DNA from: Lachnospiraceae bacterium
GTDB lineage: Bacteria > Bacillota > Clostridia > Lachnospirales > Lachnospiraceae
DNA: 52,822 nt
Direction: 5' to 3'
Assembly (NCBI GenBank): GCA_011959285.1
Contig: BLLW01000022.1
Coordinates: forward strand, 1 to 52,822
Position 1 is the stretch's first letter; every line of letters starts with the position of its first letter. Under the pieces are notes generated by a model. The model did no database searches. It saw only the letters and a list, made by a program, of their open reading frames with translations, and was not told the origin of the DNA. A program made the position numbers and the translations under genes. Below, piece by piece: positions 1,180 through 48,117 of this stretch.

Positions 1180-1800
1180 TCTGAGGAAGCAGTCGGCAAA
1201 GGTGTAAAGAGGGCGGTTGCGGACGGGCTGGCTACAAGGGAAGAACTTTTCATCACTACAAAGGTATGGGTGCAGGATGCAAAAAGCGAAGAAACGGCAT
1301 ATGAGGCTGTCAAGTCATCCCTGGCAAAGCTGGATATGTCCTATATTGATCTCATCCTGCTTCATCAGCCTATGGGAGATTATTTTGCTGCGTACCGTGG
1401 GATTGAGAAGGCCTATAAGGAGGGACTGGCAAAGGCTGTGGGCGTGGCAAACTTTTATCCGGCAATCCTTGCCAACCTTTGTGAAAACGTAGATGTGATT
1501 CCTGCCGTCAATCAGGTAGAGCTGCATCCGTTCTTTGTGCAGGCAAAAGCTCTTGAAAATATGAAAACATATGGCGTGGCGCCGCAGGTCGCCTTGAAAT
1601 GGAATGTACAACGCGGCGTGTCCATTATTCCCAAATCAGTGCATGTGGAAAGAATGGGGCAGAATATCGACATCTGGGATTTTACGCTTACGGATGACGA
1701 GATGACGAAGATTGCGGCAAAGGACCTGGGACACAGTGAGATTGTCAACCACGATGCCCCGGCGTTTGTCAAAATGCTCTGCGGAAGGAACATTCACTGA
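1180..1800 (+). pseudogene. Aldo/keto reductase remnant with 5' loss and internal deletion
   Basis: The frame begins abruptly around SEEAVGKGVKRAV, the segment that normally follows the AKR catalytic Asp/Tyr region. It runs through FITTKVWVQD, YIDLILLHQP and VGVANFYP to the C-terminal cofactor segment RGVSIIPKSV. The first 50 or so residues are missing, including catalytic Asp and Tyr. A second, in-frame loss joins MKTYGVAP directly to QVALKWN, where the family normally has about 50 more residues. Upstream sequence (1038-1179) is AT-rich and shows no start or ribosome binding site. It cannot be an active reductase. The family is clear; the boundaries are approximate. Confidence 0.85.
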
Positions 1801-1916
1801 GCCAAAGGGCGCTTTAGGAAAATACAGATGTGGACGCGGGACATTGGCACAATGTCCTGCGAACTGAAACAGGAAAGCATGAAGAAATATTAAAAAGGGA
1901 AAGGCGGTAGGAATTT

Positions 1917-2243
1917 ATGGCAAAAAAGCAGACGGCAGGAAGGGACAGGCTGGGAGATTTGGCACCTAAATTTGCGGAATTAAATGATGATATTTTATTA
2001 GGGGAGGTATGGTCGAGGGAGGAACAGCTTTCAGCAAGGGACCGGAGTATGATCACTATTGCGGCGCTCTTTTCGGCGGGACTGTACCCACGGCTAAAAT
2101 CCCATCTGGTACTTGGAAAGGAACATGGGATTACAAAAGAGGAAGCGGTCGAAATCGTGACACAGCTTGCGTTTTACTGCGGCTGGCCGAAAGCATGGAG
2201 TACATTTGAACTGATTCGGGAAGTTTATGACACGGAGACCTGA
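1917..2243 (+). CDS. Carboxymuconolactone decarboxylase-family protein
   Basis: A 108-residue protein starting at ATG 1917. It has the all-helical CMD/AhpD-like pattern: SARDRSMITIAALFSAG, then SHLVLGKEHGITKEEAVEIVTQLAFYCGWP. The CxxC pair of peroxidase-type AhpD is absent; one Cys sits in FYCGWP. Members act as lactone decarboxylases or, often, as uncharacterised redox partners. It appears full length, one of the few intact genes in this eroded stretch. Between the AKR remnant and this start, a frame ending at 1914 looks like the C-terminal tail of another lost gene. Confidence 0.85.
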   Translation: MAKKQTAGRDRLGDLAPKFAELNDDILLGEVWSREEQLSARDRSMITIAALFSAGLYPRLKSHLVLGKEHGITKEEAVEIVTQLAFYCGWPKAWSTFELIREVYDTET

Positions 2244-2443
2244 TTTTTGCGAACAATGAATAAAGCGGCCGTTTGGTTTTAACCTCCAAGTATATACTGC
2301 AATACCAATCGGAACTTCCAGACAGGTTATAAATCGCCTACAATGAACAATAAGAACAGGAAAAACGGAAATATTTTTGAGAGTTCTGTAAGGGTATTTA
2401 TGAAACGGGCGGACAGCCTGAAAAATTTAAGGAGGTTTGGGGT

Positions 2444-2623
2444 ATGGATTATTCCACAACAGCTAAGCAGCTCTTGGGAAAACTGGGCGGCGAAAAAAAC
2501 ATTATCAGTGTAACACATTGTATGACACGGCTTCGCTTTGTTTTGAAAGACGAGTACCGGTTTCCGAAAGCCTGTATTGGAAGAAGCGGAGGAAGTGCCG
2601 GAAGGGGATTTTGTGGCGGATGA
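2444..2623 (+). pseudogene. PTS glucose-family EIIB fragment
   Basis: An AAGGAGG site (2428-2434) precedes ATG 2444. The first 39 codons encode the start of a PTS EIIB domain, AKQLLGKLGGEKNIISVTHC then MTRLRFVLKD. The Cys in THC sits where the phosphorylated Cys of EIIB is expected. Similarity stops abruptly near 2560, where the sequence becomes a RibD-type reductase in another frame; the EIIB frame then ends after 59 codons. The EIIB fold and all of EIIC are lost, so it is nonfunctional. Its good ribosome site suggests it was once the start of a sugar permease gene. Confidence 0.8.
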
Positions 2624-3102
2624 CAGGGCAGACCTGTATTTTGTTTCAGTGGATGTGGACGGTGAAATCGGATGGGAATCGGGGATATTTTGCAATAAAG
2701 GGAGAGCGCCGGCTCATGTGATAGAGGTTTTGACGGCTTCCACTCCGACGGCTTATAAAGCCTGTCTGCGGAAAACAGGAGTTTCCTATATTATTGCAGG
2801 TGAAAAGGAACTGGACTGTGAGGCGGCAATGAAAAAGCTGTATCAATTTTTTCACATCAAAAAACTGCTGATCTGCGGGGGGCGGTATCGTAAACTGGAG
2901 TTTCCTACAGGCAGGCATGGTGGATGAACTCAGCCTGTTTTTGGCGCCGGTAACGGATGGCGGCTGCGGTACGGCATCTTTATTTACACAGATTCAGCCC
3001 TTTACGGAAGGCGAACCGGTAGAGTTCCTATTAAGGGAAATAGAGCAGATAGGGGACGGGGGGCTACGCTTGAATTATCAGCCCCAAAACAGAAAGATAT
3101 AA
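2577..3102 (+). pseudogene. RibD C-terminal / dihydrofolate-reductase-like remnant, frameshifted
   Basis: From about 2577 the sequence encodes a RibD_C-type reductase lacking its N-terminal substrate motifs. It runs EGDFVADDRADLYFVSVDVD, then TGVSYIIAGEKELD and KKLLICGG. At the G6 run (2876-2881) the frame breaks. The family's usual continuation (NWSFLQAGMVDELSLFLAP) resumes in another frame and ends LRLNYQPQNRKI at 3102. One base gained or lost in the G run would explain the shift. RibD_C proteins reduce pyrimidine or pterin-like substrates with NADPH. N-terminal loss plus the frameshift make it inactive. Confidence 0.8.
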
Positions 3103-3122
3103 AAATGATAGGAGGAGAAGCA

Positions 3123-3776
3123 ATGAAGGTACTTTTAGCAAATGGCAGTCCCCATAAGGAAGGCTGTACTTATACGGCGCTTTGCGAGTTGGCAGATACC
3201 TTGAATAAAGAGGGTATTGAGACGGAAATTTTCTGGATTGGCAATAAACCCATAGGGGGATGTATTGCCTGTCTGAAATGTGGGGAAAAGGGCTGCTGTG
3301 TTTTTGACGACACAGTAAACCGTTTCCGGGAAAAGGCATATAAGGCGGACGGATTTGTGTTTGGAAGCCCTGTCCACTATGCAGGCGCAACCGGAAATAT
3401 GACAGCTTTTATGGACCGGCTGTTCTACTCTGAATTGCGTGGAAACGGAAATAAGGCGTTTTACATGAAACCTGCAGCGGCAGTCGTTTCCGCACGCAGG
3501 GCCGGTACAACGGTGACATTTGACCAGCTAAATAAATATTTTACCATTCAGGAAATGCCTGTGGTATCCTCCCGCTACTGGAACATGATCCACGGTGCAA
3601 ATGCAGAGCAGGCGAGACAGGATGCGGAGGGACTGTATACCATGCGGGTTCTGGGCAGGAATATGGCGTATATGCTGCGCTGCTGTTACTCATGGCATAT
3701 GAGCTGGTCGGGCAGGCAGCCCATGAATGGATCGGCATTGGAATGTTTGCCCTTTTTGTCATCCACCATATCTTAA
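3123..3776 (+). CDS. NADPH-dependent FMN reductase / flavoprotein with replaced C-terminus
   Basis: Starts at ATG 3123 behind AGGAGG. The N-terminus MKVLLANGSPHKEGCT is the phosphate-binding loop of the flavodoxin-like NADPH-dependent FMN reductases. GGCIACLKCGEKGCC is the Cys cluster of the iron-sulfur flavoprotein subgroup. FGSPVHYAGATGNMTAFMDR completes the FMN site. Homology runs to about residue 188 (GRNMAYMLRC). The remaining 29 codons are out-of-frame DUF4405 sequence, so the native last ~20 residues were lost in a deletion. The FMN-binding core is complete, so activity is possible but uncertain. Confidence 0.75.
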   Translation: MKVLLANGSPHKEGCTYTALCELADTLNKEGIETEIFWIGNKPIGGCIACLKCGEKGCCVFDDTVNRFREKAYKADGFVFGSPVHYAGATGNMTAFMDRLFYSELRGNGNKAFYMKPAAAVVSARRAGTTVTFDQLNKYFTIQEMPVVSSRYWNMIHGANAEQARQDAEGLYTMRVLGRNMAYMLRCCYSWHMSWSGRQPMNGSALECLPFLSSTIS

Positions 3777-4252
3777 ACGGCAGCTGGATCAGAAACCTTC
3801 TAAGGGGGAGATACAATCCTGTGCGCATCATGCAGACAGGACTTGTATTATTGATACTTTGCGCAATGGCCGGCTTAATGGTAAGCGGAACCATCCTGTC
3901 CCGTCATGCGCTGTCTTTTCTGCCCATAAAAGGCGGGCGTTCTTTTGCGAGGAATCTGCATATGCTTTCCGCTTATTGGGGATTTGTACTGATGTCCGTT
4001 CATCTTGGGTTTCATTGGAGCATGATGATGGGAATGGCAAAGAAGTTTTTCCCGAAACCGTCTGCAGTACGGAAGTGGGTGCTGCGCATTCTGGCACTGG
4101 TGATTGCGGGATATGGCGGAGCATTCGGAGTCTTTCTTTGCAATGGATACATACATGACTTTTACGGCATACGGGGCGGATGCAGAGCCGGCCGTCCTCG
4201 CAGCGCAAGACAAAATAAGGGAGCTGGAGGAATTATGGTCTGTTACAGATAA
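3677..4252 (+). pseudogene. DUF4405 membrane protein remnant fused at both ends
   Basis: Reads LLLLMAYELVGQAAHEWIG, FVIHHILNGSW, SFARNLHMLSAYWGFVLMS and HWSMMMGMAKK. This is the DUF4405 four-helix membrane fold with conserved His residues, resembling heme-binding cytochrome b-type helices. The first helix is clipped where it joins the flavoprotein gene near 3680. After about 4130 the frame runs into ApbE coding sequence read out of frame. No ribosome site precedes ATG 3692. DUF4405, flavoprotein and ApbE genes often occur together in anaerobe redox loci, so this is a collapsed version of such a cluster. Confidence 0.8.
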
Positions 4253-5063
4253 AAACAGTGATGTCTATGCGGTCAATCACAGCAGCGGGCAGACTGTAAC
4301 GGTGGACTGGAAGACTGCGGAACTGCTTTCTTTTGCGCTAGATATGGCAGAGGAAACAAACGGAGCTTTGGAACCAACGATTTACCCGGTTCTGACTGCA
4401 TGGGGATTTACAACAGGAAAGAACCGTGTCCCGGCAGAGACAGAACTGGCGGAACTTTTAAAAAAAGTCGGTTACGATAAAGTTGAATTGAATAATGACC
4501 AAATTCAAATGGAACCCGGCGGTATGATTGATCTGGGTGCCGTGGGGAAAGGATATGCAGGGGATGAAGCGGCACAGGTTTTGCGTGAACGTGGTATTAC
4601 CGCTGCATTGCTTGACATAGGGGGAAATATTCAGGCAATCGGGACGAAGCCGGATGGGAGTGACTGGCGTGTCGGACTGAAAGATCCCTTTTCGGGTGGC
4701 GTACTTGGAATCATTCAGGTTTCAGACGTGGCGGTGGTTACTTCCGGAAATTATGAGCGTTTTTTCATTGGAGAGGATGGAAAAGTGTATGGGCATGTTA
4801 TTGATCCGGCAACAGGGCATCCGGTGGAAAATGGTATTGCTTCGGTATCAGTCATCGCCAGTGAAGGGAAATTGTGTGATGCGCTTTCTACTGCGCTTTT
4901 TGTCATGGGATTGGAAAATGCACAGGATTACTGGAGACAGCGCCGGAATTTTGAAATGATCCTGATTATGGAAGATGGAGATATATATCTGACAGAGGGA
5001 ATAAGGGACAGTTTTTCCTTAAATAGTGAATATAGAAATATGAAAATCAATGTCATCGACTAA
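4104..5063 (+). CDS. ApbE-type FAD:protein FMN transferase, N-terminally truncated
   Basis: ApbE catalyses FMN transfer to a Thr of flavoproteins. Homology starts at FAMDTYMTFTAYG (about 4140). It includes NGALEPTIYPVLTAWGF, GGMIDLGAVGKGYAGDEA, LLDIGGNIQAIG and HVIDPATGHPVENG, ending with DALSTALFVMG where the metal/FAD residues lie. The usual lipoprotein signal peptide is missing because the DUF4405 gene is joined directly upstream. The first dozen codons (MRDMAEHSE) are chimeric. The catalytic core looks complete, but without export it would be cytoplasmic. Functional status is uncertain. Confidence 0.75.
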   Translation: MRDMAEHSESFFAMDTYMTFTAYGADAEPAVLAAQDKIRELEELWSVTDKNSDVYAVNHSSGQTVTVDWKTAELLSFALDMAEETNGALEPTIYPVLTAWGFTTGKNRVPAETELAELLKKVGYDKVELNNDQIQMEPGGMIDLGAVGKGYAGDEAAQVLRERGITAALLDIGGNIQAIGTKPDGSDWRVGLKDPFSGGVLGIIQVSDVAVVTSGNYERFFIGEDGKVYGHVIDPATGHPVENGIASVSVIASEGKLCDALSTALFVMGLENAQDYWRQRRNFEMILIMEDGDIYLTEGIRDSFSLNSEYRNMKINVID

Positions 5064-39316: not shown

Positions 39317-39462
39317 TTGGAATGTCTCCTTTGTCTCGATTGATAGTTTTGTGTTAAAAATACAAGTGTTTTATGTGAGAATTATATAAGAAGAGATAGT
39401 ATAATGCAAGTATATTGAGAGAATCGGAACGCATTACTTATGCAGAAGGCATGGAGGATTGT
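39317..39462. promoter_or_regulatory. Divergent control region AraC / GH13
   Basis: TATAAT at 39400-39405 faces the GH13 gene, with a poor -35 near 39377, as expected of an AraC-activated promoter. The AraC half-sites cannot be assigned by eye. Confidence 0.5.
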
Positions 39463-41781
39463 ATGAGACGGGATTGTGTCAGCCATAGATGTGGATTCAT
39501 GGATTGTTATGGATTGAATAGGGATGAAGTGGTGATTCAGATTAGGACAGGGAAGGATGTTACCGGCGTCCGCTTGATTTGTGAGGATCCTTATGTTGCA
39601 GGATGTTCCGGACAGGCGCCCTGGGAGGGAAAACCTGTGAGGATGCAGATGGAAAGAGAACTGGAGTATATCTATATTTGGCGGGTGAGACTTCGGCTGG
39701 AATTTAAGCGGGTGCAGTATTATTTTGAACTCTGGGAGGGGGAGGAGAAGGTCTATTTTCTGGAGGACGGCTTTTATACAGAAGAGAGGATGCGTATGCC
39801 GGGAAGGATGCATCAGTATTTTAGGTTCCCGTGGCTGAATGAGCTGGATATATGCCGCCATCCGGCATGGGTGGAAGATACGGTATGGTATCAGATTATG
39901 CCTGACCGGTTCTGCAGAGGGGATCAGGGAGAAAAGCGCATAAAGGTAAGCGATTGGAATGACAGGGAAAATATGTCTGGTGGAGATTTTTATGGAGGAG
40001 ATCTGCGGGGGATTGCAGATAAGTTGGATTATATAAGGCAGCTGGGCATTTCGGGGATTTACTTCACGCCGATTTTTGACGCCGGAAGCAATCACAAATA
40101 TGATACCAGAGATTATAAAAGAATCGATCCTGATTTCGGGAATGAAGCGGATATGAAGGCGTTGATTCAAAAGGCGCACGGTATGGGAATCAGGGTGATG
40201 CTGGATGCAGTCTTTAATCACTGTGGAATAGAATTTTTTGCATGGAAAGATGTGCTTGACAAGGGGAAGGAATCTCCTTATTTTGATTGGTTCTTTGTGA
40301 ATAAGACGCTTAAGAAGGACGATTTTTCCAAAACAAACGATGGAAGATATTATTCTTTTGCTTTTGAACCATATATGCCGAAGTTCAATACTAACAATCC
40401 TGCAGTTATGGAGTATTTCATTGATACCTGCAAATATTGGGTAGAGGAATGGGGCATTGACGGAATCCGTTTTGATGTTGGAAATGAGATATCCCATGCT
40501 TTTATCAAAAGACTGCGCAGCGAGTTGAAGGAGCTGAATCCGGACTTGTTTTTGCTGGGAGAAATCTGGCATGATGCAAAAGAGTGGATGCTGGGGGATG
40601 AGTACGATTCGGTGATGAACTATCCTTTTGTGGAAAGCATCAATGATTTTTGGGTGGACAATGGCACAGACGGCGGATGGGAGATGGATGCCAAGGGCTT
40701 GATGTACCGGCTTAATTATTGCTATACGATGTATAAGGAACAGACCAACCGGGTACTGTTTAATTTCCTTGATAGTCACGATATAGGGCGGGCGTACAGC
40801 CGGTGTGGGAATCTTGATATTTTATTGCAGCAGTTGGTCCTTCTTCTGTCCATGCCCGGTTCTCCATGTCTGTATTATGGGACGGAGATTGCAATGTCAG
40901 GCAGTGACGGGTGCTATAACAGAAAAACGATGCCCTGGGATGAGATTGAGCGTGGGTGTCATGATGAGATTATAGAAGAAGTGAAGAAGCTCATAGCCCT
41001 TAGAAAGGCACACAGCCATATGAAGAGTGGTGAGATTCTATGGAAGCACGATCGGGCGAAGGAGCGTCTGGTTCATTATACGAAGTATGATGAGGGCAGT
41101 GGGTATGCGTTAGAAGTGTACTTGAATGCAATGGCGGAAGATGACAGGGATGAAGTGCCGGTTGAGGTGAGCGGAGCGGTGCTTTATTCCAGAAATTATG
41201 AAAATGGCTGCCTGCGCAGAAACGGTATTTTGATCTGCAGCAGGGAAGTTATGATGGTGAACGGCAGGGCGTATGAAATTATCAAACTGCTGGGGCATGG
41301 GAAGGGCGGCTACTCCTACCTGGCCGCCCGTGGGGAAAAACAATTCGTGTTAAAACAGATTCATCATGAACCATGTGATTATTATCAGTTCGGGAACAAG
41401 ATGGAGGCTGAAAAGAGAGACTATGAGAGGCTGAAAAGAACTGGCATCCGCATGCCGGAAATGATTGACTTTGACGAAGAAAGCGAGAGAATTGTAAAGG
41501 AGTATATAAAGGGACCGACGATTTACGAACTGGTGCGGCAGGATGAGATGGAAGATAAGTTCCTTGTGCAGGTAAAGGAGATGTGCCGCAAGGTATATGA
41601 AGCAGGGCTCAACATCGACTATTTCCCAACAAATTTCGTGGTGCAGGAAGGGGAAATCCATTATGTGGATTACGAGTGCAACGACTACATGGAAGAATGG
41701 AATTTTGAGAATTGGGGCGTAAAGTATTGGTCTAAGACGGAAGAATTTCAGAAGTATGCGCAGGAGCATGGGGAGAAGTAA
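39463..41781 (+). CDS. GH13 alpha-glycosidase fused to a C-terminal kinase-like domain
   Basis: 772 residues from ATG 39463 with GGAGG upstream. Residues 1-115 look like a starch-binding (CBM34-like) domain. Residues 120-520 are a GH13 barrel of neopullulanase type: DAVFNH, nucleophile D338 (GIRFDVGNE), acid/base E367 (LLGEIWH), D440 (LDSHDIGR). Residues about 597-772 are a compact protein-kinase-like domain: Gly loop LLGHGKGGYSYLA, K631 (FVLKQIH), loop D719-N724 (LNIDYFPTN) and D736 (YVDYECND). No signal peptide, so cytoplasmic. It may degrade maltodextrin. The kinase target, if any, is unknown. Confidence 0.85.
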   Translation: MRRDCVSHRCGFMDCYGLNRDEVVIQIRTGKDVTGVRLICEDPYVAGCSGQAPWEGKPVRMQMERELEYIYIWRVRLRLEFKRVQYYFELWEGEEKVYFLEDGFYTEERMRMPGRMHQYFRFPWLNELDICRHPAWVEDTVWYQIMPDRFCRGDQGEKRIKVSDWNDRENMSGGDFYGGDLRGIADKLDYIRQLGISGIYFTPIFDAGSNHKYDTRDYKRIDPDFGNEADMKALIQKAHGMGIRVMLDAVFNHCGIEFFAWKDVLDKGKESPYFDWFFVNKTLKKDDFSKTNDGRYYSFAFEPYMPKFNTNNPAVMEYFIDTCKYWVEEWGIDGIRFDVGNEISHAFIKRLRSELKELNPDLFLLGEIWHDAKEWMLGDEYDSVMNYPFVESINDFWVDNGTDGGWEMDAKGLMYRLNYCYTMYKEQTNRVLFNFLDSHDIGRAYSRCGNLDILLQQLVLLLSMPGSPCLYYGTEIAMSGSDGCYNRKTMPWDEIERGCHDEIIEEVKKLIALRKAHSHMKSGEILWKHDRAKERLVHYTKYDEGSGYALEVYLNAMAEDDRDEVPVEVSGAVLYSRNYENGCLRRNGILICSREVMMVNGRAYEIIKLLGHGKGGYSYLAARGEKQFVLKQIHHEPCDYYQFGNKMEAEKRDYERLKRTGIRMPEMIDFDEESERIVKEYIKGPTIYELVRQDEMEDKFLVQVKEMCRKVYEAGLNIDYFPTNFVVQEGEIHYVDYECNDYMEEWNFENWGVKYWSKTEEFQKYAQEHGEK

Positions 41782-41955: not shown

Positions 41956-42975
41956 ATGGATATTTCAGCAATTCTTAAAAAAGAAGAATATGATTTTATA
42001 AAAACGAATGAGCATTTGGGAAAACATGTCATTTTGCTTGGGCTTTCCGGCAGTTATTCTTATGGGACAAACAATGAAAACAGCGATATCGATGTGAGAG
42101 GCGTGGCGCTGAATCGAAAATCTGATTTGATAGGGATGACGGAGTTTGAACAGTATGTGGATAAAAATACAGATACGACGATTTACGGCTTTCAAAAAAT
42201 GATAAACTTATTGCTTAACTGTAATCCCAATACGTTGGAGTTATTAGGGCTTAATCAGGAACATTATCTTTTTCTCAACGAGACAGGTAAGGCGCTGATT
42301 ACAAATACAGATTTATTTCTTTCTAAAAGGGCGATTCAGTCGTTTGGCGGCTATGCCGATGCGCAGCTTCGCAGGCTGCAGAATGCCTTGGCGAGGGATG
42401 CTTATCCGCAGAGTGAAAAGGAACGGCATATTTTCAACTCTGTAAAGAATGTCATGTATGACATTAAGAATCGTTATGAAAAATTTGAAAATGGAGCTAT
42501 CCATCTTTATATAGACCAATCACAGAACCCCGACTTTGATACAGAAATCTTTTTGGATGTGAATCTTACACACTACCCACTGCGGGATTATAGAAGCATC
42601 TGGAATGAGATGAACAATATTGTGAAGGACTATGATAAGATAGGCAAACGCAATAAAAAGAAGGATGATAATCACCTCAATAAACATGCAATGCATTTAA
42701 TCAGGCTCTTTATGATGGCAATCGACATTTTGGAGAAAGGAAAAATCAACACATACAGGGTAAAGGAGCACGAGCTCCTTATGCGCATCCGGGGCGGAGA
42801 ATACCAGAAGGAGGATGGCACGTTTGATGAAGCGTTTTATGAGATTATAGCGGATTATGAAAAAAAGTTAGATTACGCGGCGGCGCATACGTACCTTCCG
42901 GAGGAACCGGATATGGAACGGGTGCAGGAATTTGTTATGGCAGTAAATGAAAAGGTGATTCGGGATGAAATATAA
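41956..42975 (+). CDS. RlaP/YcgL-type nucleotidyltransferase 1
   Basis: 339 residues. The polymerase-beta-like active site is LLGLSGSYSYGTNNENSDID: GS at 32-33, D44 and D46. It belongs to the predicted RNA-repair-associated nucleotidyltransferases (RlaP, PF10127). Members are thought to add nucleotides to RNA ends. Its 3' end overlaps a second copy of the same fold by 11 bases, so the two are co-translated. Confidence 0.8.
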   Translation: MDISAILKKEEYDFIKTNEHLGKHVILLGLSGSYSYGTNNENSDIDVRGVALNRKSDLIGMTEFEQYVDKNTDTTIYGFQKMINLLLNCNPNTLELLGLNQEHYLFLNETGKALITNTDLFLSKRAIQSFGGYADAQLRRLQNALARDAYPQSEKERHIFNSVKNVMYDIKNRYEKFENGAIHLYIDQSQNPDFDTEIFLDVNLTHYPLRDYRSIWNEMNNIVKDYDKIGKRNKKKDDNHLNKHAMHLIRLFMMAIDILEKGKINTYRVKEHELLMRIRGGEYQKEDGTFDEAFYEIIADYEKKLDYAAAHTYLPEEPDMERVQEFVMAVNEKVIRDEI

Positions 42976-43747
42976 GGACTATCATGGAACTATCGAAAAT
43001 TTGATAAATGTAAAATTAGATGAAATAGAAGAACAGGAGAACGTAAAAATCCTGCATGCAGTCGAATCAGGCAGCAGGGCATGGGGATTTGCTTCTCCTG
43101 ACAGTGATTATGATGTAAGATTTATATATATAAGACCGATGGAATATTATCTTGGATTGCAGAAAAAGAAGGATTTTATCGACTGGGAGCTGAATGAAAT
43201 CTTGGACATCAATGGGTGGGATGTTTCAAAGGCGCTGCAGCATTTTCATAAATCGAATGCAACTTTGTTTGAATGGAGTAACTCTCCAATCGTTTACCGG
43301 ACTACTGATGAGTGGGAAAGGGTAAAAAGGACTGCGTCAGAATATTTTTGCTGTAAGTCTGCGATGTATCATTACTATGGAACTGCAAATAAAAATTACT
43401 ATGAGTTCCTTTTGGAGGGCAGGGTCAAGTATAAGAAATATTTTTACGTTCTTCGTCCAATTTTAGCGTGTAAATGGATAGAAAAGAGGCAGTGCCCGCC
43501 GCCGGTGCTTTTTGACCGATTGGTGCAGGAGATGCTTGAAGAAGATATGAGACCGGTTGTTGAAGGGCTGTTGCAGCAAAAGACGAAGATGATTGAAGCG
43601 GAGAAGGGACCGAGAATTGATGAATTGAATGCGTATATTCAGGAAAATTTGACAGCAATCAAGATGAAGACGGAAGCAATGGAGGATGATGGGAAGAGGG
43701 ATTGGGAGGAAATTAATAGGTTGTTTATTGAAATTTTACATAAATAG
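42965..43747 (+). CDS. RlaP/YcgL-type nucleotidyltransferase 2
   Basis: 260 residues. The active site is HAVESGSRAWGFASPDSDYD: GS at 36-37, D48 and D50. Same family as the preceding gene but clearly divergent, with conserved WDVSKALQHFHKSN and MYHYYG segments. Tandem, overlapping copies suggest a heterodimer or division of labour. The SOS-box promoter of the next operon starts immediately after it. Confidence 0.85.
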   Translation: MKYKDYHGTIENLINVKLDEIEEQENVKILHAVESGSRAWGFASPDSDYDVRFIYIRPMEYYLGLQKKKDFIDWELNEILDINGWDVSKALQHFHKSNATLFEWSNSPIVYRTTDEWERVKRTASEYFCCKSAMYHYYGTANKNYYEFLLEGRVKYKKYFYVLRPILACKWIEKRQCPPPVLFDRLVQEMLEEDMRPVVEGLLQQKTKMIEAEKGPRIDELNAYIQENLTAIKMKTEAMEDDGKRDWEEINRLFIEILHK

Positions 43748-43750
43748 TCC

Positions 43751-43779
43751 TTGAAAGTAAAGAACGTATGTTCTATAAT
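43751..43779 (+). promoter_or_regulatory. Promoter with embedded LexA/DinR-type box
   Basis: TTGAAA (43751-43756), 17 bases, TATAAT (43774-43779). Inside the spacer, abutting the -10, is GAACGTATGTTC (43762-43773), a perfect match to the Gram-positive SOS consensus GAAC-RNRY-GTTC. It drives the gene at 43798 and probably the restriction genes behind it. Function is inferred from match and position. Confidence 0.7.
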
Positions 43780-43797
43780 TTGAATGAGGTGTTGACA

Positions 43798-44262
43798 ATG
43801 AAATTTTTTTTACCTATTTATTTACGAGTGGCACAGAAGAGAAGAAAGAAATATGATTTGGTGACAGATGAACTTTGTGTTGAAGGCTGGGAGTTAATTA
43901 ATTCGGATGTATGTGAACAATATTATATCTCGGGATATGGAAAAAAACGTAAGTTAATCTTCTCGGGATATTTTAATTCATGTTCCATGGCAGAGATTTC
44001 AGATAAGATACAAAAGAGCAATTTGGTCATTGTCAAGTCAAAACGATTTTGCAGAAATAACGCGTTGAATATGCTTAGAGAATATTCTTACAGGGAGAGA
44101 TGTTTTGCACCAGTGGTGTACTCGGGTGGGGAGGAGGTTTTGTTTTTTCCTCAATTGCGATATGAGGACGGTCTCTTGGTAAAATGGTTATTAAAGCGGC
44201 AATTTAAAGAAGAGATGTATTATGTCACTTACGGCAACAGCAGTCAGTTGATAGCCATTTGA
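43798..44262 (+). CDS. Hypothetical protein heading the restriction operon
   Basis: 154 residues from ATG 43798 behind GAGGTG; an in-frame ATG at 43768 lies upstream of the predicted transcript start. Basic N-terminus (RVAQKRRKKYD), mixed alpha/beta, with ISGYGKKRKLIFSGYFNS. I do not recognise the family. The methyltransferase-endonuclease gene starts 40 bases later, so it may be a controller or accessory protein, but no helix-turn-helix is evident. Confidence 0.6.
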   Translation: MKFFLPIYLRVAQKRRKKYDLVTDELCVEGWELINSDVCEQYYISGYGKKRKLIFSGYFNSCSMAEISDKIQKSNLVIVKSKRFCRNNALNMLREYSYRERCFAPVVYSGGEEVLFFPQLRYEDGLLVKWLLKRQFKEEMYYVTYGNSSQLIAI

Positions 44263-44302: not shown

Positions 44303-46405
44303 ATGCAATTTACAGTTATATCTATGTTTTCAGGAGCCGGGGGCTTGGATATGGGCTTTCATAACAAAGGCTTTAAGATATTATGGGCAAATGATTTTGC
44401 AAAGGATGCATGTGATACTTATGATTTATGGGCAAATTATAATTTAGATGGAACAAGAAAAAGTGAGGAAGATTGTACGACCATAGTATGCGGAGATATT
44501 GCAAAGCTGGATTTAAAAAAGGTGTTGCCGGGAGAAGTGGTTGATGTTGTTCTTGGCGGATTTCCCTGCCAAGGATTTTCTTTAGCTGGTCCAAGGCAGA
44601 TTGACGATACAAGAAATGTGCTATATAGACATTTCGTAGAAGTAGTCAAGCTTAAAAATCCCAAGGTTTTCATTGCGGAAAATGTGATTGGCATAAAAAC
44701 ACTAGGCGGTGGGGCGGCATTTGAGAAAATAATTGATGATTTTTCTGAGCTGGGGTACACAATGTCAGCTCCTACGGTAAATGCGAAGAACTTTGGAGTT
44801 CCTCAAGATAGAATGCGGGTGGTTTTTATAGGAATCAGAAATGACATATGTCATAAGGGTGCGTACATCTTTCCGGCAGGTGATATGAGGGAGGTTAGTC
44901 TTAGGGAAGCATTGGCAGATTTACCGCCGGTTGATATGGAGGACGTATGCCAGGCCCCGTTTTCATCACGTTATATGTCAAGGAACAGGAGAAGAGAATA
45001 TGCGGATGTATCATTTACCATTCCGGCAATGGCTAAGCAAGTGCCATTAAGCCCAGATTCAGGAGGAATGCGGTATGTGGATGTGGATAGATTTGAATTT
45101 GTAGGAGCAAACAGAAGACTAAGTTACCGGGAAGCGGCAGCAATTCAAACATTTCCTAGAGATATGGTATTTTGCGGTGATTTAGACAGCAAATATAAAC
45201 AAATTGGGAATGCTGTTCCGGTTAAATTGGCAGAGGCAATTGCAGTAGAAGTAAAGAAAATTTTGACAACGAAAGATTTAACCCCACTCTTAAATATTGA
45301 AAATCCAGAAAAGGAAATTGAAGCGGACCGAAGAATAAATGATAAGGTAAAAAATGGAAAAGCGTTTGAATATGCTTCTTTAATAGAACTGTATAATGAA
45401 CTTCTTCATACTGGGTGGAAACAAGAACAGTTAGAGATTGAACGGGATAAGAATTATCAAAACATTGAAAGAGCATATCAGTCCTTTGAGCTGCTGGATG
45501 AAGATGAGGAGGACGAAAATGAAGTAGAACTTATTGTTGAAAGACATTGCAATATGTTCAGCTGTGCGGCGCATGTGGCGGCGCGGTACTTGTGTATGGT
45601 AGAACCAATTTTACAAAATCCCAAGGGATTGCATGGTGTGCTTAAGGCAATGCCGGACAGCGCAGGGATCAAAGGTGACGTTAGGGATATAGATTTTATT
45701 GTATATTATGATAAAGAGCATAAGGAAAAGATTAAAGAAATAGGAATAAGCTGTAAAAACAATCATGAAGCAGTAAAACATCCAAGGATAACAGAAGAAC
45801 CCGATTTTGCGAAAGAGTGGACGAAAGGTGAATTTGTCTGCAGCCAAGAATTTATGGATGAAATGGAGAAAATTCAAAATAAGATTGATGAGTATAAAGG
45901 GAAATATAAAAAGTGGTCAGATGTAGAAGAAAAAATGGATAGTATTTATTATCCAATTGTGAAACTTTTTGTAAAAGAGATTAAGCGCTTAGGAATTGCT
46001 GACGAAAAGGCAGCGCATGAACAGCAGTTAAAGGCAAAAAGATTTACACAATTGTTCTTTGAGTATATGTTCGGAACTCAGGATTTTTACAAATTTATAA
46101 AGGATGATAATTCCAGAGCAACCAAAGTATACCCATATAATATGCATGGCTCTTTGATGAATCCATATAATGGAAATAAAAATGAGCAGGCTGTTAAAAG
46201 CATAAATATGCCGGAAGAAATAGTGGAAGTCAGAGTAAAGCCCAAAAGCAAAACGACGATAGAAGTATATTTCGACCAGTGGATTATATCGATGAGATTG
46301 CATAATGCTGATTCCAAAATAACCAAAACATCGTTGAAATTTGATGTGCAGATTAAAGCGCAGCCGAGAAAAGTCATGGGAACTGTATTACATTGGGATA
46401 AATAG
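44303..46405 (+). CDS. Fused C5-cytosine methyltransferase and HaeIII-like endonuclease
   Basis: 700 residues from ATG 44303 (AAGGAG upstream). Residues 1-325 form a C5 methyltransferase: motif I FSGAGGLDMGF, motif IV GGFPCQGFS with catalytic C89, ENV, QDRMRV and motif X YKQIGNAVPV. The target-recognition segment MSRNRRREYADVSFT resembles that of M.HaeIII (GGCC), from recalled sequence. Residues 351-700 match the HaeIII endonuclease family: NGKAFEYASL, GDVRDIDFIV and GISCKNNHEAVKHPRI (catalytic-type D462/D464, K485). One chain would thus modify and cut the same site, predicted GGCC. Fusion of a C5 methyltransferase with its endonuclease is unusual. The frame is clean across the junction. Confidence 0.85.
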   Translation: MQFTVISMFSGAGGLDMGFHNKGFKILWANDFAKDACDTYDLWANYNLDGTRKSEEDCTTIVCGDIAKLDLKKVLPGEVVDVVLGGFPCQGFSLAGPRQIDDTRNVLYRHFVEVVKLKNPKVFIAENVIGIKTLGGGAAFEKIIDDFSELGYTMSAPTVNAKNFGVPQDRMRVVFIGIRNDICHKGAYIFPAGDMREVSLREALADLPPVDMEDVCQAPFSSRYMSRNRRREYADVSFTIPAMAKQVPLSPDSGGMRYVDVDRFEFVGANRRLSYREAAAIQTFPRDMVFCGDLDSKYKQIGNAVPVKLAEAIAVEVKKILTTKDLTPLLNIENPEKEIEADRRINDKVKNGKAFEYASLIELYNELLHTGWKQEQLEIERDKNYQNIERAYQSFELLDEDEEDENEVELIVERHCNMFSCAAHVAARYLCMVEPILQNPKGLHGVLKAMPDSAGIKGDVRDIDFIVYYDKEHKEKIKEIGISCKNNHEAVKHPRITEEPDFAKEWTKGEFVCSQEFMDEMEKIQNKIDEYKGKYKKWSDVEEKMDSIYYPIVKLFVKEIKRLGIADEKAAHEQQLKAKRFTQLFFEYMFGTQDFYKFIKDDNSRATKVYPYNMHGSLMNPYNGNKNEQAVKSINMPEEIVEVRVKPKSKTTIEVYFDQWIISMRLHNADSKITKTSLKFDVQIKAQPRKVMGTVLHWDK

Positions 46406-46415
46406 GGGGATTTAA

Positions 46416-47660
46416 ATGGAAATAGAATTTGAAAAACTTGATGTAAGTGATCTGATGGTAGATGCTGTGTATAAGGGAGGGACAGTCGGCGGAAAAGGAG
46501 CAGAGGTTTTATCAAAATTGATGCCTGGATGCAGTAATTCAGGCGGTTTTAGAAAGGTAATGAGAAAAGACGGAAGCGGTCTTCCGGCGTATGTTGTTTT
46601 GTACACTTCTATGCAGGAATTGGCTTGGCCAGATTATTTAGATGAAGAAACGGGTATATTTCGATATTACGGAGATAATCGAAATCCAGGCAGAGCAATT
46701 CTAGATACTCCGCGAAAGGGAAATCAATTATTAGAATTTGTTTTTGGGTGTTTAAACAGCAAAGATGGATCGATCAGGAATATTCCACCCTTTTTTGTTT
46801 TTAAAAAAACAGGGAGAGGATGGGATGTTCAATTCTTAGGTTTGGCAGCACCGGGCAATCCCCATATTTCTCCAGATAGAGATTTAGTGGCTTTTTGGCG
46901 TACATTGGATGAAAAACGTTTTCAAAATTATGAAGCATATTTTACAATTTTGCAGACACCGTGTGCGATTAGCAAGGAGTGGATTCATGCATTGGTTTAT
47001 GAACACGAAAAAAGTTTTGAATTAGCACCATATAGCTGGAAATCTTTTTTAAAACAGGGACGCAATGGAATTACTCCGCTAATTGCGAAAAAAATTCCTA
47101 AGGTTCCAACAAGATATGATCAATTACAAAGTGATGCGGAAGGAAACATATGTTTATCTAAAATAAGAGAGCATTACGGAAATAATCCATATGGATTTGA
47201 AAATTGCGCGAAAGATATTTTAGAAAAAATGGATGAAAAATTTCAGGACTTTTCGCTTACAAGACCATGGAGAGACGGTGGGAGAGATGCTTTGGGGCAT
47301 TATATAATCGGGAGGGAAACGAAGTCAAATTATCCTTTGCGAATTGACTGTGCAATGGAGGCAAAATGTTTTTCTGAAAACATCGGAGTTGGAGTAAAGC
47401 ATATGTCCAGACTTATTTCTAGAATTCGATATAGACAGTTTGGAGTTATGATTACAACAAGCTATGTAAATAAGCAGGCATATAAGGAGGTAATTGAAGA
47501 TGGTCATCCCATCTTGATTGTTTCTGCTAGTGATATTGCCAGAATTTTAAGAAGGAATGCGGTTACAAGTTCTAATGTGGATGAATGGCTGTTGGCTCTT
47601 GATGAAACCGACAATAGGGGCAGAGCACAAAGAATGGAAGCTTATTATAGAACTCTTTAG
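46416..47660 (+). CDS. Mrr-type restriction endonuclease, possibly 5mC-dependent
   Basis: 414 residues starting 10 bases after the fusion gene. The C-terminal Mrr-like nuclease core has RDGGRDALGHY with D291 and CAMEAKCF with E315 and K317 (D-ExK), then QFGVMITTSYVNKQAY. The N-terminal 220 residues (VSDLMVDAVYKGGTVGGKGA, then KVMRKDGSGLPAYVVLY) recall the AspBHI/MspJI-type 5-methylcytosine-recognition domain (RE_AspBHI_N), from memory. If right, it would cut foreign 5mC DNA beside a gene that makes 5mC. Alternative: a second classical endonuclease served by the same methyltransferase. Confidence 0.65.
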   Translation: MEIEFEKLDVSDLMVDAVYKGGTVGGKGAEVLSKLMPGCSNSGGFRKVMRKDGSGLPAYVVLYTSMQELAWPDYLDEETGIFRYYGDNRNPGRAILDTPRKGNQLLEFVFGCLNSKDGSIRNIPPFFVFKKTGRGWDVQFLGLAAPGNPHISPDRDLVAFWRTLDEKRFQNYEAYFTILQTPCAISKEWIHALVYEHEKSFELAPYSWKSFLKQGRNGITPLIAKKIPKVPTRYDQLQSDAEGNICLSKIREHYGNNPYGFENCAKDILEKMDEKFQDFSLTRPWRDGGRDALGHYIIGRETKSNYPLRIDCAMEAKCFSENIGVGVKHMSRLISRIRYRQFGVMITTSYVNKQAYKEVIEDGHPILIVSASDIARILRRNAVTSSNVDEWLLALDETDNRGRAQRMEAYYRTL

Positions 47661-47662
47661 GC

Positions 47663-47691
47663 TTGACAGCATATAGTTGTTACTTTAGAGT
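47663..47691 (+). promoter_or_regulatory. Promoter of the MutT gene
   Basis: TTGACA (47663-47668), 17 bases, TAGAGT (47686-47691); it overlaps the end of the endonuclease gene. Confidence 0.5.
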
Positions 47692-47709
47692 ATGCAGGGA
47701 GGTAAAATT

Positions 47710-48117
47710 GTGTCTTACTCACCAAAAAGAAAAACAATCAACGTAGCTGCCGCTATCATCAAGGTCCAAAACCAAATTTTCGCCACCCAAAGAGGCTATG
47801 GACCCTTCAAGGACGGATGGGAGTTTCCAGGCGGCAAGATAGAAGAAGGTGAAACTCCAGAGCAAGCCCTCGTTCGGGAAATTAAGGAGGAGCTTGATAC
47901 GGAAATAGAGATTGGAGAGCTGGTGGACATTGTGGAATATGATTATCCAGATTTCCATCTGACCATGCACTGCTTCATGTGCACGATCAAATCTGGTGAT
48001 TTAGTGCTGAAGGAGCATGAGGCGGCAAAATGGCTTACCAGGGAAACATTGTACAGCGTGGACTGGCTTCCGGCGGATAAGGATTTAATTGACAAATTAT
48101 ATGCAAAATTCATGTGA
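47710..48117 (+). CDS. MutT-like NUDIX hydrolase
   Basis: 135 residues from GTG 47710 with GGAGG upstream. The NUDIX box GGKIEEGETPEQALVREIKE then EL has the metal-binding Glu residues. The length fits MutT-type (8-oxo-dGTP) pyrophosphohydrolases, but substrate cannot be fixed from sequence. It has its own promoter and is probably not part of the restriction operon. Confidence 0.85.
   Translation: MSYSPKRKTINVAAAIIKVQNQIFATQRGYGPFKDGWEFPGGKIEEGETPEQALVREIKEELDTEIEIGELVDIVEYDYPDFHLTMHCFMCTIKSGDLVLKEHEAAKWLTRETLYSVDWLPADKDLIDKLYAKFM

Follow-up and report, generated by a model that had tools for sequence, protein, structure and literature searches.

The HaeIII restriction-modification system, which acts on GGCC, is encoded by two genes, and M.HaeIII methylates the inner cytosine of this site to give GG5mCC. 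Homologs of both M.HaeIII and R.HaeIII are joined in one chain, with a divergent nuclease domain, in a 52,822-nucleotide stretch of DNA (the window) from a Lachnospiraceae bacterium (contig BLLW01000022.1 of assembly GCA_011959285.1), and depletion of GGCC from the host genome supports the same target. We consider it highly likely, from sequence evidence, that the product of the gene at 44303–46405 is a naturally occurring single-chain Type II restriction-modification enzyme for GGCC, with an N-terminal half that methylates and a C-terminal half that cuts. Such an enzyme would resemble RM.Eco29kI, in which an m5C methyltransferase and a palindrome-cutting nuclease also share one chain. According to the account in PMC3039593, RM.Eco29kI is a laboratory fusion obtained by mutagenesis, ordered R-M and directed at CCGCGG, whereas the window enzyme is natural, ordered M-R, and predicted to read GGCC; the same account has RM.Eco29kI cutting inside a true palindrome and other Type IIC enzymes containing m6A methyltransferases. 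The Type IIC/IIG enzymes MmeI, BpuSI, and BtgZI likewise combine cutting and methylation in one chain, but they are described in PMC4081073 as carrying gamma-class methyltransferases (alpha-class in BtgZI) and cutting away from their sites, unlike the pairing of a C5 methyltransferase with a HaeIII-type nuclease seen here. The presence of both domains in one open frame, in the window and in its relatives, conforms to Type IIC, and the C5 class of the methyltransferase departs from the gamma class expected of Type IIG, in which S-adenosylmethionine also stimulates cutting. Our reading is that the fused enzyme is probably a natural m5C "Type IIC" counterpart of RM.Eco29kI. Among the papers listed in a literature search on C5 fusions, no title or abstract opening describes a single-chain C5 enzyme from nature; REBASE may well contain predicted fused entries, and we make no claim of a first.

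The fused gene lies on the forward strand and is, as the original prediction had it, one clean frame of 700 codons (700 aa) that opens with ATG and contains no internal stop. Its assignment draws on Pfam, PADLOC, and the closest solved structure. Separate matches cover the two halves: Pfam DNA_methylase spans residues 3–319 (E 4.1e-64; 217.5 bits against a cut-off of 22) and RE_HaeIII residues 352–686 (E 2e-56; 191.8 bits against a curated cut-off of 25), and PADLOC places MTase_II at 1–325 and REase_II at 346–698. The methyltransferase domain (44309–45259; predicted product GG(5mC)C) contains PCQ at 88–90, ENV at 126, QDRMRV at 168, MSRNRR at 225, and IGNAVPV at 301, the last of which we take to be motif X; the predicted complete C5 methyltransferase with catalytic C89 is thus recovered. 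The nuclease domain (45356–46360), delimited by Pfam and by alignment with separate HaeIII-type nucleases, carries GDVRD at 458–462 and GISCKNNHEAVKHPR at 481–495. It had been expected to occupy residues 345–700; the HaeIII family assignment stands and the start does not, as the match begins at 352, and approximately codons 323–351 (45269–45355) form a linker. With an RE_HaeIII score of 192 bits, compared with 364–463 for full-length matches in other genomes, the domain appears to be a divergent family member, and a sequence search of the fused protein against the PDB found no relative of it among solved structures. A second, weaker C5 methyltransferase match occurs elsewhere in the host, in a 652-aa frame (contig C27, 20654–21502; E 9e-8, 32.5 bits).

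The nearest solved structure to the fused protein is M.HaeIII (1dct; phmmer E 4e-44, aligned over residues 5–319). An AlphaFold model built from 23 sequences (the window's fused protein together with 10 further fused rows and 12 in which M or R stands alone) contains two confident domains, with a mean pLDDT of 85.2, a weak stretch at 342–345 within the linker, and a pTM of 0.54 that leaves the modeled mutual orientation of the M and R domains unsure. Foldseek ranks M.HaeIII at the top for this model (3ubt, E 6e-27; 1dct, E 7e-26); the 50 matches listed from the whole-model search show methyltransferases, with no match for the R-domain fold among them. A PD-(D/E)XK layout may be read into the modeled R domain, with D462 ahead of the strand at 463–468 and K485 within the strand at 476–486, but this is a reading only.

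The fused frame recurs across species. Scanning genome contigs with the fused protein yielded seven loci, five of which are other distinct fusions at 72–75% identity: L002, L003, L004, L007, and L008, of which L007 is truncated at its end. L004 and L005, two contigs from a single metagenome-assembled genome, carry the same match and were counted once, and L006 (Lachnospiraceae bacterium IMSAGC_003), 100% identical over codons 239–700, was taken as the window's own species. Because the M-R junction is covered and open in all five other loci (L004 together with L005), and L006 is identical over the codons given, the fusion is neither a chance frame nor an assembly slip. Viral contigs contained no relative of the fused protein in a scan able to find close relatives only, and no relative of the R domain was found in phages.

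One indication of the target comes from the sampled host genome, in which GGCC is almost completely lost. The sample comprises the window and 17 further stretches of 20 kb each, 392,822 bases or about 9% of the assembly. It contains 67 GGCC sites where trinucleotide frequencies predict 1063.7 (134 and 2127, respectively, when both strands are counted), and the observed/expected ratio (O/E) of 0.06 is the lowest of the 256 tetramers. In a same-genus genome with no RE_HaeIII match (G264), GGCC occurs 1045 times against 1506.7 expected in 400,000 bases (O/E 0.69), and pooled loci (L051–L079) from 29 genomes outside the RE_HaeIII matches also give 0.69. CGCG, GATC, and ACGT are depleted in the host and G264 alike; low tetramer ratios have other causes too, and it is the contrast in GGCC between the host and G264 that is informative. 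CTAG shows the opposite pattern (O/E 0.10 in G264, 0.46 in the host) and is perhaps another restriction target in G264. GGCC depletion extends to the five genomes with a second type of fusion (type B; O/E 0.14–0.44). Among 13 sampled RE_HaeIII genomes, host included, O/E is 0.06–0.44 in nine and 0.55–0.86 in four, all four of which have separate genes. As three of the seven separate-gene genomes show comparable loss (0.10–0.28), low GGCC marks specificity rather than fusion, and it is by itself no proof that the fused enzyme caused it. Stronger avoidance in fused genomes (0.06, 0.37, 0.17, 0.14, 0.44, and 0.20) than in separate-gene genomes (0.55, 0.62, 0.11, 0.10, 0.86, 0.82, and 0.28) is not supported (Mann-Whitney p 0.23); the small contigs bearing window-type (type A) fusions (L002, L003, L004, L006, L007, and L008; 5–14 kb, O/E 0.07–0.65) were kept outside this test. 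GGTC/GACC, the trace expected of deamination, is not raised in the host (O/E 0.85). That the enzyme reads some GGCC-related site, with GGCC avoided for another reason, might be argued from the mild rarity of GGCC in the controls, but the far lower ratio in the host, the depletion in most RE_HaeIII genomes, and M.HaeIII as the nearest solved methyltransferase make it extremely unlikely. GGCC, the site originally predicted, is very probably the target.

The C-terminal half has evolved faster than the N-terminal half. Between the window and L002, L003, L004, and L008, dN is 0.12–0.14 for M and 0.22–0.26 for R, and L003 compared with L007 gives dN/dS of about 0.03 for M and 0.1 for R. Since dN is low where synonymous sites are saturated or nearly so, both halves are under purifying selection. 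The faster change of R and its reduced RE_HaeIII score could be taken to mean that the nuclease has decayed, leaving an orphan GGCC methyltransferase with an epigenetic or anti-restriction role and GGCC loss as a relic. Such decay is very improbable, given that the window, L002, L003, L004, and L008 keep a complete R frame (L007 being cut by its contig), that GDVRD and the GISCKNNHEAVKHPR block are identical in these five and L007, and that R retains the low dN/dS just given. Processing or internal initiation could instead release free M and R, so that fusion merely co-expresses two enzymes, a scheme compatible with the apparent independence of two well-modeled domains (low pTM despite a pLDDT of 85) and with TTG codons at 321–322 in the window, L003, and L007. 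Within codons 301–420 of the window copy, however, no in-frame start codon is preceded by a Shine-Dalgarno-like motif, and start positions near the junction are not common to all six rows, so we regard release of separate enzymes as very unlikely.

The preferred reading thus remains a single chain with two working halves. We infer that both domains would be catalytically active, the N-terminal half methylating the inner cytosine (GG5mCC) of the host's own sites and the C-terminal half cleaving incoming DNA wherever GGCC is unmethylated. With a flexible linker of approximately 29 residues between them, M and R would be largely independent in action and present at a fixed 1:1 dose. A balance of cutting against protection in cis within the fused enzyme, as initially proposed, is plausible.

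Enzymes of this type had been described in the original prediction as normally two genes, which holds in the samples from elsewhere, whereas fusion is common within Lachnospiraceae. RE_HaeIII occurs in nine of 397 sampled family genomes, in a fused open frame in six (G000, which is the host, G092, G344, G303, G173, and G322) and as a separate gene in three (G053, G224, and G386). A phylum sample of 398 genomes contains the host and four others, all with separate genes, and the nuclease gene is separate in all three plasmid records that have one. In trees built for the M and the R domains (21 of each), the window-type methyltransferases fall beside non-fused enzymes from G053, G224, G091, and G700; the second fused group sides with G449, Streptococcus, and Helicobacter. 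The data reject a constraint that unites all fused rows in a single clade (M, p 2e-10; R, p 0.0076) and do not reject a single clade of the second group alone (p 0.27 and 0.12, respectively); these values are indicative, given the long branches in the trees and the naming of the groups once identities had been seen. Because the one-clade constraint fails for both domains and the linkers of the two groups are dissimilar, we conclude that at least two independent fusions probably occurred, with the same M-R order. The second lineage (G092, G344, G303, G173, and G322) likewise fuses HaeIII-type domains but differs from the window in its methyltransferase, which comes from another branch, its linker, and the small upstream gene, which was not found beside it. 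Separate M and R open frames (as distinct from mapped starts) overlap in G224 and G449, and we view such overlap as an easy starting state for fusion. Another natural C5 fusion was noted in G032 (L049, 5391–7667), a 759-aa frame of opposite domain order in which an HNH_2 match (7e-5, barely above its cut-off) precedes a C5 methyltransferase.

A small gene with a 164-aa frame (43768–44262, forward strand) ends 40 bases ahead of the fused gene. An ATG at 43798, preceded by GAGGTG, is its likelier start, and a promoter-like TTGAAA-17-TATAAT (11/12; 43751–43779, forward strand), possibly the operon promoter, comes from a consensus scan that returned 22 sites against 13.7 expected in the scanned region and is not evidence of function. 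The frame has no match in Pfam, NCBIfam, or PADLOC, yet all six distinct loci in which that side is visible, window included, carry it or a homolog immediately before the fused gene. These homologs (L002, L003, L004/L005, L007, and L008) share 26–30% identity with it, compared with 72–75% for the enzyme, and a conserved core, FFPxL...D..L. Its dN to the window copy, 0.71–0.88, is approximately three to seven times that of the M and R halves; as dN/dS between L003 and L007 is 0.2 despite this divergence, the gene evolves fast but under constraint. A profile search of 150 genomes at E 0.01 gave six matches: the window copy, G061, G096, G124, G127, and G139. The G061 match (E 6e-5) was rejected as antisense to a long frame, presumably a phosphotransferase enzyme, and the last four reach E 0.004–0.009, so that no convincing copy was found in the 149 other sampled genomes; viral contigs contained no relative either. 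The predicted structure is poor (pLDDT 65, a mixed strand-helix core, 54 of 164 residues below pLDDT 50), with no Foldseek match better than E 0.15. Controller (C) proteins are small helix-turn-helix regulators; compared with these, the small protein has no family match and its relatives give weak, sub-threshold rows. The protein may be a brake on or regulator of the single-chain enzyme, a guess somewhat more apt to be wrong than right, and an anti-inhibitor facing phage proteins is another guess. Farther upstream in the window are two adjacent RlaP-type nucleotidyltransferase genes (RNA repair; 41956–43747) and an alpha-amylase (39415–41781) whose C-terminal part shows weak, sub-cut-off similarity to a RIO-like kinase (E 0.008). 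In L008, the fused enzyme is preceded (1335–5016) by a PLD/NgoFVII-like protein, possibly with an NTPase part, and a large protein, both possible additional defense genes.

Beginning 10 bases after the fused gene is a predicted AspBHI/LpnPI-like 5mC-dependent restriction endonuclease (46416–47660, forward strand). It combines the SRA-like N-domain and Mrr-type catalytic domain of the MspJI family (Pfam RE_AspBHI_N 4e-52, Mrr_cat 2.7e-10; PADLOC mREase_II 1.4e-132), is a clear relative of AspBHI itself (PDB 4oc8, E 3e-95), and aligns its GGRD..EAKC with AspBHI. The gene has a 73% copy in L008 and is identical in L006. Its place in L002 (8048–9250) and L004 (8111–10431) is taken by a DUF262 gene followed by a HEPN-type gene; the DUF262 genes are 66% identical, and the L002 copy matches GmrSD_N (Pfam) and NsnA and PD-T4-2_A (PADLOC). 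L003 has neither an AspBHI-like nor a DUF262 gene, and L007 ends too soon. Given AspBHI-like genes in the window and L008, DUF262 in L002 and L004, and neither in L003, the core of the locus is the small gene and the fused enzyme, with a variable second defense gene. RE_AspBHI_N is found in five of 250 family genomes (the window's, G003, G022, G027, and G110). The intact gene of G003 and the fragment of G022 each share a run with a C5 methyltransferase (PADLOC MTase_II) and a Vsr gene, the latter called by Pfam in G022 and by likeness alone in G003; no C5 methyltransferase or Vsr was seen, by eye and motif, near that of G027. The G022 run (L102, 3605–7956) comprises the AspBHI-like fragment, Vsr, a MutH/Sau3AI-like nuclease, a C5 methyltransferase, and a Nudix gene.

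The idea that modification-dependent enzymes are compatible with the methyltransferases present in the same host is established (PMC3874153), and the MspJI gene is described there as adjoining a cytosine methyltransferase thought inactive, whereas the window nuclease runs with an intact-looking GGCC enzyme. AspBHI reads YS(mC)NS and LpnPI C(mC)DG (PMC4499157, Table 1); MspJI, a more distant member of the family, recognizes (mC)NNR (PMC4499157). By analogy with these listed sites, GG(mC)C, with G at −2 and −1 and C at +1, would fit neither the AspBHI nor the LpnPI site, but part of the GG5mCC sites would fit that of MspJI, so self-compatibility of the downstream nuclease would not be a given. 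A stretch that reads PGRAILDTP in the window nuclease, PGRLLHDTP in AspBHI, and PGHDIHDTP in LpnPI appears from PMC4499157 to hold the swapped RLL loop. If the window nuclease is AspBHI-like in specificity, the pyrimidine at −2 alone would keep it off GG5mCC.

A MutT/NudG-like Nudix hydrolase follows (47692–48117, forward strand; Pfam NUDIX 8e-21), with a likely start at the GTG at 47710. PADLOC assigns it to PDC-S07 (1.2e-50), which we read as a phage-defense candidate family. Its best solved match is 3gwy, a putative CTP pyrophosphohydrolase (1.3e-30), and E. coli MutT outranks NudG. Relatives at E 1e-20 are present in 108 of 250 family genomes, and many accompany nucleases that PADLOC calls mREase_IV (65 rows in the first 150 family genomes), presumably kin of SauUSI. 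Seen from the nuclease, the link is strong: in the sampled family genomes (L182–L211 among the loci), 22 of 24 full-length SauUSI-type rows have this Nudix type no more than 2 kb away, as do 32 of 34 rows reaching the profile end when fragments are included, as opposed to eight of 31 other rows. Seen from the Nudix it is only partial: of 69 Nudix rows in the same 150 genomes, 36 have some mREase_IV row at a distance of 2 kb or less, and 34 of these lie downstream of it on the same strand. The remaining 33 include those of G000 and of G022, the latter directly after a C5 methyltransferase. A Nudix frame was found in 26 of 32 further loci taken, with C5 methyltransferases beside it in G083, a SauUSI remnant in G070, and a SauUSI-type gene approximately 4 kb off in G010; the other 23 showed none of the gene types looked for. 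In G224, the same Nudix type comes about 30 bases after separate HaeIII-type genes. The G083 run (L224, 172–5410) consists of Vsr, two C5 methyltransferases, a GIY-YIG protein, and the same Nudix type. Material in PMC5389931 and PMC3744803 is the basis for a putative removal of 5-methyl-dCTP by the Nudix protein, which beside SauUSI-type nucleases is a candidate nucleotide-pool guard for 5mC restriction. Among the papers searched, SauUSI and Nudix are mentioned together in one, in passages that have nothing to do with each other; other papers may differ.

Membership of the Nudix gene in the GGCC-enzyme unit is doubtful, because its GC3 (0.50) resembles that of degV (0.57) and the amylase (0.53) and it is preceded by a separate promoter-like site (TTGACA-17-TAGAGT, 10/12; 47663–47691, forward strand; from the consensus scan only). 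GC3 is 0.41 for the small gene, 0.33 for M, 0.35 for R, 0.28 for the AspBHI-like nuclease, and 0.44 for rlaP2 upstream. L008 stops 80 bases past the nuclease gene, before any Nudix position. The small gene, the fused enzyme, and the 5mC-dependent nuclease form an operon-like run in which the small protein, by guess, replaces the separate timing of M and R lost on fusion, and the nuclease would be expected to cut foreign 5mC DNA and spare GG5mCC. A wider layered 5mC defense unit, in which a GGCC writer-cutter, its dedicated small partner, and a GG5mCC-sparing nuclease act with a Nudix that destroys 5-methyl-dCTP, is conceivable but rather unlikely; there, the Nudix would keep salvaged methylated nucleotides out of host DNA at sites the nuclease would cut. 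If so, the pairing of Nudix and 5mC nuclease would be general, the same Nudix type standing beside nearly all full-length SauUSI-type nucleases of the sampled family genomes.

For the family, a natural m5C single-chain enzyme apparently arose at least two times, and the resulting set of single-chain palindrome cutters is available for studying how cells tolerate cutter and protector in a fixed 1:1 dose. The companion small gene and the Nudix raise the questions of whether the former may act as a brake on the enzyme and whether 5-methyl-dCTP clean-up may protect cells that restrict 5mC.
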